Assembly: GCF_002355415.1 (NCBI RefSeq)
Contig: NZ_AP014936.1
Coordinates: forward strand, 2,480,001-2,544,000
Reading direction: 5' to 3'
DNA: 64,000 nt
Origin: Sulfurifustis variabilis
GTDB lineage: Bacteria > Pseudomonadota > Gammaproteobacteria > Acidiferrobacterales > Sulfurifustaceae
Shown piece by piece: positions 1,829-33,271 of the stretch (the first letter of the stretch is position 1; each line of letters opens with the position of its first letter). The translations under genes were made by a program, and so were the position numbers. The notes under the pieces are model-generated. The model ran no database searches. It saw only the letters and a program-made list of their open reading frames with translations, and was not told where the DNA came from.

Positions 1829-3184
1829 CTACGCCGCCTGCTCGGCCGCCCGCCGCACGGTGTCGGCGAGCTGATGGGACAGTCGCTCGACCAGACGCAT
1901 GTCGGCGCCCTCGACCATCACGCGAATGACCGGCTCGGTGCCCGAAGCGCGCAGAACCACGCGGCCGCGGCCGGCAAGCTCGCGCTCGACCTCCTTGACC
2001 GCGCCCTGCACGAGTGTCGAGGCGTTGAGGTCGAACCGCCGCGTGGTGCGCACGTTCACCATGTGCTGCGGGTAGACGTCCATGCCCGAGCGCAGCTCCG
2101 CCAGCGGCTTGCCCGCGCGCACCGCCGCCGACAGGACCTGCAGCGCCGCGATGATTCCGTCGCCGGTCGTCAACATGTCGAGGCAGATGATGTGCCCCGA
2201 CGTCTCGCCGCCCAGGTCCCAGCCGTTTTCCACCAGCGCGCCCATGACGTAGCGATCGCCGACCGCCGCGCGTACGAAGGGGATTCCGAGCTGACGGCAG
2301 GCAAGCTCCAGGCCGAAGTTGCTCATGAGCGTGCCGACGAGACCGCCCCGGAACTGCCCGTTCCTGAGCCGGTCGAGCGCGATGACGTAGAGCAGCTGAT
2401 CGCCGTCCACGACCGCACCGGTGGCGTCGACCATCACGACGCGGTCTCCGTCGCCGTCCAGGGCGACCCCGACGTCGGCCTTCGCCTCGAGCACGGCGCG
2501 GGCAAGCGTTTCCGGATGCGTCGAGCCGCAGTCGCGATTGATGTTGAAGCCGTCCGGCTCGGTGGCGATCGCGATGACCTCCGCCCCGAGCTCGCTGAAG
2601 ACGTGCGGCGCGACGTTGTAGGCGGCGCCGTTCGCGCAATCGACCACGATCTTCAGCCCGTCGAGCGAAAGGCGGTGCGGGAACGTGCTCTTGCAGAACT
2701 CGATGTACCGTCCGCCGGCATCGTCGTAGCGCTTTGCCTTGCCGAGCTTGGCAGAGGACACCGTCTTGAGCGGCTCCTGCATCGCCTCTTCGATCGCGAG
2801 CTCGACGTCGTCGGGAAGCTTCGTTCCCTCCGAGGAGAAGAACTTGATGCCGTTGTCGTCGTACGGGTTGTGGGACGCCGAGATGACGATCCCGGCGCGT
2901 GCGCGCGATGTGCGCGTAAGGTAAGCGATGCCGGGCGTCGGCATGGGTCCGAGCAGACGGATGTCGATGCCGGCTGCCGAGAGGCCCGACTCGAGGGCCG
3001 ATTCGAGGAGGTACCCGGACACCCGCGTGTCCTTGCCGATCACGATCTTTCCCGGATCGTTGCCCTTGCGGCCGAGCACCCTCCCTGCCGCCCACCCGAG
3101 CTTGAGGACGAGCTCCGGCGTGATCGGTTCCTCGCCCACGCGGCCGCGGATGCCGTCGGTGCCGAAGTACTTGCGCTTCTTCAT
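1829..3184 (-). CDS. glmM: Phosphoglucosamine mutase
   Basis: GlmM converts glucosamine-6-phosphate to glucosamine-1-phosphate for UDP-GlcNAc, peptidoglycan and LPS synthesis in the cytosol. The 451-residue protein opens with [13 protein letters not shown]. It carries the phosphoserine active-site loop [13 protein letters not shown] near residue 100 and the metal-binding loop ALDGDGDRV near residue 240. The C-terminal phosphate-binding loop [12 protein letters not shown] is also present. Its start overlaps the folP stop by four bases (ATGA), indicating translational coupling. The ftsH-folP-glmM order is standard in gammaproteobacteria. Confidence 0.97.
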
Positions 3185-4032
3185 GTCGCTACTGCCCCGT
3201 CGTTGTTCTGTGGATAGACCGCCTCGAGCATCCGCACCGCCTGGACGGTCGGCGCGACATCGTGCACCCGGAGGACGCGCGCGCCGTTCGACACGGCCAT
3301 GAGCGCCAGCGCGATGCCGGGATACAGCCGCTTTTCGACGGGCAGGCCCAGCAACTTGCCGATCATCGACTTGCGGGAGAGCCCGACCAGGAGCGGGACA
3401 CCCAGTCGCCGCAGTTCCCCGAGGTTTCGCAGTAAGTCTAGATTATGCTCGACCGTCTTGCCGAAGCCGAAGCCCGGGTCGACGAGCACGCGCGTGCGGG
3501 GGATGCCCGCGCGCTCGGCCGCCTCGATGCGGGAGACCAGGAACTCCCGGACCTCCCGGACGACGTCCGCGTAGCGCGGGTCGACCTGCATGGTGGCGGG
3601 TTCGCCCTGCATGTGCATCAGGCACACGGGTACCCGGAGGTCGGCCGCCGCCTGGAGTGCGCCGGGGAGCCGAAGTGCCCGCACATCATTTATGGCACCG
3701 GCCCCGGCCGCCACCGCCGCGCGCATGACCTCCGGCTTCGACGTGTCTACCGAGATCGGCACGGGGAGCTCCCTCGCGCACGCCTCGATCACCGGCACCA
3801 CGCGCTCGATCTCTTCCTGCGCCGACACCTGGCGGGCACCGGGCCGTGTCGACTCCCCGCCGATGTCCAGGATATCGGCACCCTCTTCGACCATTTGACT
3901 CGCCCGGGCAAGGGCCGCGTCCGGGCCAAAAAAAACACCCCCGTCCGAGAAGGAATCGGGGGTGACGTTCAGTATGCCCATGACCGCGGTGCGGGAGAGG
4001 TCGAGCGCCCGCCCCCCGCAGTCGAGGATCAT
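3181..4032 (-). CDS. folP: Dihydropteroate synthase
   Basis: FolP condenses p-aminobenzoate with 6-hydroxymethyl-dihydropterin diphosphate to make dihydropteroate; it is the sulfonamide target. The 283-residue protein has the two signature blocks: [14 protein letters not shown] near residue 20 and [13 protein letters not shown] near residue 55. The pterin-binding [10 protein letters not shown] is near residue 180, and the C-terminal RVHDVAPT completes the barrel. It sits 4 bases downstream of ftsH and overlaps glmM by four bases, so the three genes are probably one transcript. Confidence 0.97.
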
Positions 4033-4036
4033 GCGC

Positions 4037-5953
<1,917 letters not shown>

Positions 5954-31584: not shown

Positions 31585-31616
31585 AGATGCATCCGGCGTC
31601 GCGCCGACTTCTCACC

Positions 31617-32090
31617 ATGCCCAAACCGAAAAAAACCGCCGCCGGCTCGCAGATCGCACAGAACCGCCGCGCGCGCCATGACTACTTCATCGAGCAGAAG
31701 TACGAGGCCGGCCTCGCGCTTCAGGGCTGGGAGGTGAAGAGCCTGCGTGCCGGCCGCGCACAGCTGAAGGAGGGCTACGTGCGGCTCGAGGGCGGCGAGG
31801 CGTGGCTCGTCGGGACGCACTTCTCCCCGCTCACATCGGCCTCGACCCATGTCCGGCCCGACCCGAGCCGGGCCCGCAAGCTGCTGCTGCACCGCGAGGA
31901 GCTGGGCAAGCTCTTCGGCGCGGTCGAGCGCCGCGGTTACACGCTCGTGCCGCTTTCGCTCTACTGGAAGCACGGGCGCGCGAAGCTCGAGATCGGGCTT
32001 GCCCGCGGCAAGCAGCTCCACGACAAGCGCGCCGATCTGAAGGCCCGCGAAAGCGCGCGCGAGGTCGAGCGCGCCATGAAGGCCCGCTGA
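31617..32090 (+). CDS. smpB: SsrA-binding protein SmpB
   Basis: SmpB binds tmRNA and brings it to stalled ribosomes. The ATG at 31617 gives 157 residues starting [19 protein letters not shown], the normal family start. The core includes [20 protein letters not shown] and [14 protein letters not shown]. The C-terminal basic tail ([20 protein letters not shown]) acts in the decoding centre. It lies 50 bases upstream of the tmRNA gene, its partner. Confidence 0.97.
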
Positions 32091-32131: not shown

Positions 32132-32231
32132 GCCTTGCATGGGGGCGATCGGCTTCGACGTGGGTCGCGAAACCTCTGGAGCATGCCGAGGTGCAGAGTT
32201 CCTCGTAAATCCAGCTGCAACCAACATAGTT

Positions 32232-32264
32232 GCCAACGACGACAACTACGCCCTAGCGGCTTAA
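32232..32264 (+). CDS. tmRNA-encoded proteolysis tag ANDDNYALAA
   Basis: The resume codon GCC is followed by codons for NDDNYALAA and TAA. It differs from the E. coli tag ANDENYALAA by one residue. The terminal ALAA is the signal for ClpXP, and FtsH encoded in this window can also recognise it. Confidence 0.93.
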   Translation, partial: ANDDNYALAA

Positions 32265-32479
32265 TCCCCGCTAGCCTCTCGCCCAGCGTTTCTCCCGTGG
32301 GCCGGGACCGAGGGGTCGATTACACGGGATCGCGCTTCATCGTGTCTGTTGGTGGGGCGCTAAACCAATAGCAGGCTAAGCCTGTCGACGATCCCGTCTG
32401 TCGGAGAGCGGCAGGTCAAATCAAAGACAGACTACGCATGTAGAACCGGAGCTGTAGGGCTTGCGGACGCGGGTTCGAT

Positions 32480-32740
32480 TAACACCATGGTCGCCTCTGC
32501 TCGAGAGGGCAGAGTGAAAACGGGGCTCATTCGGCGAACCCTGCGCCACCGAGAGGTGGTATGGCAACGCCGAGGGGTAGCGAGGGGCCAACCCGAGCTG
32601 CCCTGTAGAGACTTATAGACCGGCTGAGTCGCCAAAGCGGCGGAGCCGGCACTAGGATCCGGCAACGGATAACACGCCCCGCATCCCGGAAACGGGATGA
32701 AGGCATAGTCCAGCCCGTATCGAAAGATACGGAACAGCTG
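32480..32740 (+). mobile_element. Group I self-splicing intron in the tmRNA T-loop
   Basis: The 261-nt insert begins after a U and ends in G (32740), the group I rule. P1 can form between exon CGAU (32476-32479) and GUCG (32490-32493) with a U.G pair at the splice site. Other elements: P2 CTCTGC/GCAGAG (32495-32514); P3 CGGGGC (32521-32526) with GCCCCG (32676-32681); P8 CATCCCG-GAAA-CGGGATG (32682-32699); and P9 CCGTATC-GAAA-GATACGG (32715-32732). The core motif ATAGTCC (32705-32711) is P7, pairing with ACTA at 32651-32654. No open frame lies inside. Confidence 0.9.
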
Positions 32741-32764
32741 TCCCGCCGCCTCCACCATACGAGA

Positions 32765-32802
32765 GAACCCCTTGACCCTTACGGGCAAGGGGTTCATTTT
32801 TT
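32765..32802 (+). terminator. Intrinsic terminator of ssrA
   Basis: GAACCCCTTG (32765-32774) pairs with CAAGGGGTTC (32786-32795), followed by ATTTTTT. It begins 8 bases after the tmRNA CCA. Confidence 0.92.
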
Positions 32803-32828: not shown

Positions 32829-33271
32829 ATGGCCGCGTACCGCAGAGTGCGCAGCCTGACGCCAGAGGAGGCGGCTTACATTGCCGGCGTCATTGACGGC
32901 GAGGGAACGATTTCGCTCTCCCGCCGACACGTGACCGACAACCGGCAGCTCGTGATCCGCATCAGCAATACTGAACGCGACTCGCTCGATTATATTCTGC
33001 AGATGGTTGGCGCAGGATTACCAGGAAGCGAACCGCCAAATCGAACCATACCCCGAGCGTCACCTACGCGATCGATAACCGTCAGGCGCTTTCCTTGCTT
33101 GAACAGATCGCCCCCTACTTACGCACTTACAAGGCGAAACGGGCGGAACTCGTACTACGAGACTGCCTCCGGCTGACGCCGCGAAATGGCAAGTACACTC
33201 CGCCCCTGCTCCGCCAGCGCGAGCATTTCATCGAGCGGTTTCTGCAACTCCGGCCGACGTTCGCTGCTTAG
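32829..33271 (+). pseudogene. Frameshifted LAGLIDADG homing endonuclease
   Basis: The ATG at 32829 follows a strong GGGAGG ribosome site. The first 63 residues include the single LAGLIDADG motif as AAYIAGVIDGEGTISLS. After MVGAG (near 33015) the frame is lost, and the uninterrupted version closes at 33176 with unrelated sequence. One base later the correct frame resumes (ITRKRTAKSNHTPSVTYAID, then LLEQIAPYLRTYKAKRAEL) and ends at 33271. Restoring one base near 33015-33017 gives a 147-residue single-motif endonuclease, which would act as a homodimer. It lies outside the intron, after the ssrA terminator. Confidence 0.88.

Follow-up and report, generated by a model that had tools for sequence, protein, structure and literature searches.

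A tmRNA gene of Sulfurifustis variabilis with a group I intron in its T-loop, and an adjoining LAGLIDADG endonuclease gene that may have served to spread it

The window analysed here, a stretch of 64,000 nucleotides from the genome of Sulfurifustis variabilis (a single contig of 3,958,814 bases), holds a tmRNA gene at 32141-32757 with smpB upstream of it (Table 1). The original prediction, that the T-loop of this gene is interrupted by 261 nt while acceptor stem, tag frame and CCA are all present, was confirmed. RF00023 aligned to 32148-32481, the 3' T-stem and the 3' strand of the acceptor stem being missing from the match, and ARAGORN made no tmRNA call either in the window or in the unspliced gene. 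When the insert was left out and 32141-32479 was joined to 32741-32757, the same program returned a standard tmRNA of 356 nt with the tag ANDDNYALAA, together with an overlapping reading, labelled "permuted," which continues round the end of the sequence tested. A DNA search of the whole genome detected one tmRNA copy, the other RF00023 matches listed staying at or below 30.2 bits, under the cut-off. In the portion of the genome paper available, the number of RNA genes is put at 49, that of tRNAs at 46 and that of rRNA operons at one (PMC5024460). If the operon is counted as three genes, none of the 49 is left for tmRNA, so the gene is probably missing from the published annotation.

Table 1. 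Features of the tmRNA locus, in positions of the window.
Feature	Position	Strand	Basis and remarks
smpB, protein partner of tmRNA	31587..32090	+	Pfam SmpB, 3.2e-59
tmRNA 5' exon	32141..32479	+	Acceptor 5' strand from 32141 to T-loop U32479; RF00023, 187.4 bits; ARAGORN, exons joined
Tag frame ANDDNYALAA and stop	32232..32264	+	ARAGORN, exons joined; coordinates from the sequence
Group I intron (predicted), 261 nt, T-loop position 7	32480..32740	+	RF00028, alignment, helix pair counts
P1	32476-32481 with 32488-32493	+	U32479.G32490 marks 5' splice site; 104/108 cells paired; double changes in 1/6 pairs
P2, loop GAGA	32495..32514	+	135/144 cells paired; double changes in 7/8 pairs
P3	32521-32526 with 32676-32681	+	108/108 cells paired; double changes in 3/6 pairs
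P7 core, inside AUAGUCC	32610-32613 with 32707-32710	+	72/72 cells paired; invariant, double changes in 0/4 pairs
P8, loop GAAA	32682..32699	+	Fold and alignment; poorly aligned among relatives
P9, loop GAAA	32715..32732	+	123/126 cells paired; double changes in 5/7 pairs
tmRNA 3' exon including CCA	32741..32757	+	ARAGORN, exons joined
Terminator-like hairpin, T-rich tail	32767..32799	+	Stem 32774-32794 by scan, outer limits by eye; between tmRNA and HEG
LAGLIDADG HEG, frameshifted	32829..33271	+	N-terminal part (from ATG 32829) and C-terminal part (to TAG 33269-33271) in different frames

The borders of the insert are those of a group I intron, as had been predicted: U32479 stands before it and is paired with G32490 as a U.G pair in P1, the last nucleotide is G32740, and U32741 follows. 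The loop is thereby split as UUCGAU^U, and this is T-loop position 7 by our reading of the numbering in the available part of PMC11915505, a published position for such introns. To assess the helices, standard pairs were counted in a sequence alignment of the window intron with 17 related introns (18 in total; Table 1). P4 and P6, for their part, had standard pairs in 89/90 and 125/144 cells and double changes in 1/5 and 5/8 pairs, respectively. Double changes were found above all in P2, P3, P6 and P9. P7, located in the predicted ATAGTCC motif, is standard throughout and invariant, and thus gives no covariation support. Among the helices that the original prediction had named, P2, P3 and P9 covary, but P8 is badly aligned, its 79/119 paired cells being equalled by one slid version, and it lends no covariation support. 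The GAAA loops were found in P8 and P9 but not in P2, the loop of which is GAGA.

The general Rfam model agreed with this assignment in part. RF00028 matched 32470-32732 with 37.6 bits (E of 1e-7 in 1.2 kb), below the gathering score of 50, so that the check proposed with the original prediction gave a match but not one above the threshold. At E values up to 0.001 the model matched 4 of 17 intron-bearing relatives with 30.6 to 39.2 bits, all below 50, and it therefore recognises this group of introns poorly. The predicted fold of 32460-32757 was better than those of shuffled sequences by 5.6 standard deviations (z of -5.6). Taken together, boundaries, helices, covariation and the existence of relatives with and without the intron make the interpretation of the insert as a group I intron in the T-loop well supported at the level of sequence. 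Separately, three of the relatives (L045, L047 and L048, in G014, G016 and G045) carry in the P8 region an insert of about 80 nt with inverted GGGGTCAGAGTCGA-type ends, which is MITE-like.

Introns of this kind are well known. The original prediction had placed them in a few lineages and considered them rare; this is out of date, since 883 unique intron-form tmRNAs from 21 phyla have been described, all with the intron in the T-loop and most at position 7 (PMC11915505, in the portion available). The intron of the window is an ordinary member of this set and is not new: of group I, it splits the T-loop at the main position and has no homing endonuclease gene (HEG) inside it. HEGs were found inside 36 of the 883 introns (4.1%) (PMC11915505). 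With introns in 21 phyla and yet so few HEGs within them, the mode of their spread is in question. The difference from the published set is that a HEG lies outside the intron here, whereas the available sections of that paper count HEGs inside introns and make no mention of HEGs beside the gene. Among the titles, abstract openings and passages seen in searches of open-licence papers, none described a HEG next to tmRNA. The endonuclease gene at 32829-33271, absent from the original prediction, is the more interesting part of the locus.

This gene, of the I-CreI/I-MsoI type, lies 71 nt beyond the tmRNA gene, outside the intron and after the terminator-like hairpin, and its ATG is preceded, as judged by eye, by GGGAGGA. 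The assignment to this type comes from motif and fold. PF14528 was above the cut-off in two intact relatives, the broken copy of the window remaining below it (20.9 versus 22.5), and G006 and G014 each have an intact copy of 155 codons at the corresponding position, that of G016 having one stop. An AlphaFold model of the relative L042 (pLDDT of 91.8) had I-CreI, I-MsoI and I-CvuI as its best PDB matches, in agreement with a sequence search (I-MsoI, 8.5e-9). The likeness to these three enzymes extends to fold (TM of about 0.7), length and the single LAGLIDADG motif, the difference being an identity of only 21 to 27% in the structural alignments. I-CreI, I-MsoI and I-CvuI reside within rRNA introns, and I-CreI is a homodimer that acts on a pseudo-palindrome; by analogy, the protein encoded here would act in the same way. 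That the T-arm forms an inverted repeat, as any tRNA-like arm does, proves nothing in this respect. D23 and E25, acidic residues of the motif, did not vary among 12 HEG copies, and a dN/dS of 0.07 for the closest intact pair indicates purifying selection on that pair, many other pairs being saturated at synonymous sites. Relatives of the gene carry the label "HNH endonuclease" in PHROG 5046 and in phage records, NC_041927 and JX100814 among them.

The association of HEG and intron was studied in 369 genomes of Gammaproteobacteria, with a HEG profile (E up to 1e-6) and with R1, a covariance model of the 3' part of the intron plus the 3' exon (E up to 1e-5). HEGs were detected in 18 genomes and introns in 22; 16 genomes, spread over 15 families, had both, 6 the intron only, 2 the HEG only and 345 neither. 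The HEG was thus present in 16 of the 22 genomes with a detected intron, compared with 2 of the 347 others (Fisher P of 2.7e-21, uncorrected for relatedness), a contrast that may be overstated because R1 was trained on 14 introns, namely that of the window and 13 lying beside HEGs from the HEG search, and was run with stricter filters, so that HEG-less introns may be missed. Seen from the other side, the intron was found in 16 of the 18 genomes with a HEG versus 6 of the 351 others. The six HEG-less introns that R1 did find scored 81.7 to 93.9 bits. A strict pattern for an uninterrupted T-arm was matched in 209 of the 369 genomes, including both with the HEG only and none of the 22 with introns, which leaves 138 genomes with neither an intron match nor such a T-arm. 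In the worst case, with all 138 counted as carrying HEG-less introns, the association still had a P value of 5.8e-5, again uncorrected for relatedness.

A second comparison was independent of the HEG, as introns were searched by BLAST with that of the window in the 20 genomes of its family. The intron was present in 6 of them, and the HEG in 4 of these 6 versus 0 of the other 14. Nine of the latter had uninterrupted tmRNA matches of 352 to 355 nt (RF00023), and a tenth, G005, had an uninterrupted T-arm on a gene cut by the contig end. With resolved genomes only, leaving out the remaining 4 of the 14, the figures are 4/6 and 0/10 (P of 0.008, uncorrected for relatedness). In one further order, also represented by 20 genomes, introns were found in 5, HEGs in 5 and both in 4. 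The HEG was not detected in plasmids (one query, E of 1e-5), and among 398 Pseudomonadota genomes drawn it was found only in that of the window. A narrow-pattern scan of genome contigs, the sole search that reached bacteria outside Pseudomonadota, gave three near relatives.

The position of the gene was similar from locus to locus. cmscan found tmRNA in 18 of 20 HEG loci, the two without it being a second HEG piece (L052, in G045) and a locus at a contig edge (L066, in G091), where the HEG starts right at the end of the contig, next to tmRNA. The HEG match started 49 to 176 nt beyond the tmRNA CCA on the same strand at 19 loci, and 47 nt beyond it in G249. Introns with no HEG match were found in 6 of the 22 intron genomes of the class survey, and also in G008 and G810; one of those six genomes, G215, scored as having the intron only, carries a HEG remnant of 55 residues. 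Second or split HEG pieces about 2 to 8 kb apart were observed near tmRNA in G070 (L068 and L070), G112 (L065 and L069) and G045 (L048 and L052), which suggests that elements were inserted or that duplications occurred there. In G002 (L014), the 3' end of tmRNA is repeated about 194 nt farther on, as if a small element had integrated at tmRNA.

The state of the HEG was then compared with that of the neighbouring gene. Among 26 bacterial copies, 13 had intact frames, all 13 beside intron-bearing genes; the other 13 were broken or partial, 11 of them beside intron-bearing genes and 2 beside intronless ones (L063 and L068). The difference (13/0 versus 11/2) was not significant (two-sided P of 0.48). 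In this count, L065 to L068, L090, L177 and L178 were scored as broken by how far the match extended, their whole frames being unread, L059 for having no in-frame start codon near the N terminus, and L057 was taken as intact although its frame continues into about 110 further residues. In L057 (1492-1920, in G314) these residues come from downstream sequence. A co-phylogeny of intron and HEG was also considered and rejected, as their distances showed no correlation (Mantel r of 0.14, P of 0.12, 11 loci). The T-loop UUCGAUU was likewise discarded as a marker of co-conversion: some intronless members of the family have UUCAAUU instead, but among the uninterrupted matches listed in the class the majority have UUCGAUU as well, and a sequence so common in intronless Gammaproteobacteria cannot serve as such a marker.

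Relatives of the HEG were also found beside tmRNA genes in phages. From a viral scan the best 80 of 347 HEG relatives were kept, and cmscan at the gathering threshold detected tmRNA in 5 of these 80 loci, all among the best 11, and in none of the remaining 69. This concentration has a P value of 1.9e-5, which is indicative, since the cut at the best 11 was chosen afterwards. In two of the five, L095 (48.6 bits, just above the cut-off of 47) and L096, the tmRNA is permuted and the HEG diverges from its 5' end; L097 has a standard tmRNA with the HEG 13 nt downstream, and L102 a permuted one with the HEG frame upstream and overlapping. In the fifth, L105, the HEG (2983-3393) lies antisense within the T-loop intron of a phage intron-form tmRNA, and a Pistol ribozyme match was observed nearby, at 4342-4409. 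In L096, L097 and L102 an open HEG frame stands beside an uninterrupted T-arm, directly against the side of the tmRNA gene, standard or permuted, in which this arm lies (T-arm located by motif in L096 and L102, by eye in L097). No T-arm matching the search motif was found in L095 or in Sphingobium phage Lacusarx. The latter is the best match among 42 phage records with HEG matches, and its HEG overlaps the annotated ssrA; four other annotated records list no tmRNA near the HEG, by annotation only, and a fifth has no annotation. Weak R1 matches in viral HEG loci (L119, 30.6 bits; L144, 20.8 bits) and two more at E values of 0.26 and 0.64 were not counted as tmRNA.

In a tree of 45 HEGs that included 29 of the 80 viral loci and 4 of the 6 phage records opened, bootstrap values were unsettled and many forks stayed open, but one branch, with support of 98/98, separated 12 bacterial HEGs, 6 tmRNA-linked phage HEGs and two unlinked ones (L098 and 023Pt) from 25 others. 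What is new at this locus is not the intron but its neighbour, a member of an outboard HEG lineage that goes with tmRNA both in Gammaproteobacteria and in some phages and for which a bench test is worthwhile.

The arrangement of a free-standing HEG adjoining an intron-bearing gene is that of collaborative homing, and we put the probability of this reading at about 70%. According to it, the group I intron would have to splice from the tmRNA precursor to restore the T-loop, and it has no HEG of its own, a free-standing LAGLIDADG enzyme being encoded past the tmRNA terminator. This enzyme would cleave intronless tmRNA genes in the T-arm or close to it; as the break is repaired from the donor, intron, 3' exon and HEG would be copied as one, and the intron of the new copy would then shield the tmRNA gene from cutting. 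The HEG would in this way mobilise a HEG-less intron along with itself. In S. variabilis the HEG would since have been frameshifted, which would leave the intron as a stranded passenger. The absence of intact bacterial HEGs beside intronless genes (0 of 13) is consistent with protection by the intron, but the open phage frames oppose the simple version: with uninterrupted T-arms beside them, either the intron is not always needed for self-protection or the target differs or is altered. The phages may thus have a different target or may be protected by a change of sequence.

Two known systems are similar. In cyanophage S-PM2, the free-standing HEG of F-CphI adjoins psbA, a gene with a group I intron, and the intron blocks self-cleavage by F-CphI (PMC6083498). 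The differences are that this system concerns a phage protein gene and another nuclease family, with cleavage shown, whereas the putative cleavage considered here concerns a LAGLIDADG enzyme and a non-coding RNA gene in bacterial chromosomes. In phage T4, mobE mobilises in trans the intron of I-TevIII, the own HEG of which is defunct (PMC2988022); it too is free-standing, but of the HNH family and in phage protein genes. Collaborative homing has been reviewed (PMC3984707 and PMC2988022), and the cases in the available parts of these reviews and of PMC6083498 are from phages.

Another route to the same layout is HEG turnover, in which a HEG first resides inside the intron, like those of the 36 published cases, later copies lie outside, and the internal one is lost, as proposed for other loci (PMC10448857, in the part available). 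The phage relative within a tmRNA intron (L105) is in line with this route, but no trace of a HEG was noticed, in passing, in the 18 introns during their alignment. We regard turnover as possible, although doubtful; it concerns the origin of the arrangement and is compatible with collaborative homing.

A HEG that targets the 3' flank or acceptor end of tmRNA instead of the T-loop and moves alone, the intron being carried by co-conversion, is unlikely. The open HEG frames that adjoin uninterrupted tmRNA genes in phages, the broken HEGs at the two bacterial intronless loci and the uncorrelated distances of HEG and intron would all fit such a course. Against it stand the bias in the class survey of HEG genomes to the intron, the lack of intact bacterial HEGs beside intronless genes, and the placement of the HEG at the T-arm side in L096, L097 and L102, whether the tmRNA is standard or permuted.

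We consider it very improbable that the HEG is incidental cargo of genomic islands integrating at tmRNA, even though tmRNA genes are favoured integration sites of such islands (PMC11915505) and the second HEG pieces in G070, G112 and G045 look as if inserted or duplicated. The similar spacing and identical orientation at 19 loci, the bias of the HEG to intron-bearing genes and the phage tmRNA genes as neighbours all argue against it. Maturases exist among LAGLIDADG proteins, and this, together with the association of HEG and intron, could be taken to mean that the protein aids the splicing of the adjoining intron. Such a role is scarcely credible, as the HEG is broken or partial at 11 intron-bearing loci and was not found in seven intron-bearing genomes (G008, G011, G088, G146, G239, G358 and G810), in all of which tmRNA would still need splicing, some phage relatives adjoin uninterrupted tmRNA, and neither D23 nor E25 varies among the 12 copies. 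Finally, that the tmRNA gene is dead and its insert unspliced is hardly conceivable, because, although a scan gave no sigma-70-like promoter match from 32050 onward, acceptor stem and tag are intact, smpB adjoins, the intron helices covary in relatives and no second copy was found in the genome.

Collaborative homing may be one part of a wider picture, which we hold to be only somewhat better than an even bet: an I-CreI-like HEG lineage dedicated to tmRNA would home to the conserved T-arm, whether the tmRNA gene is standard, intron-bearing or permuted and whether it belongs to a bacterium or a phage, and would spread HEG-less tmRNA introns in trans. Phage-borne tmRNA genes would be tied to the same lineage. 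A HEG placed outside the gene would provide a directly testable answer to the question of how tmRNA introns spread in Gammaproteobacteria, and a search inside introns alone can overlook the mobility gene. If this is true, collaborative homing would take place in cellular chromosomes too, with a gene for a non-coding RNA as its site, and the process would extend from phages to the chromosomes of bacteria.
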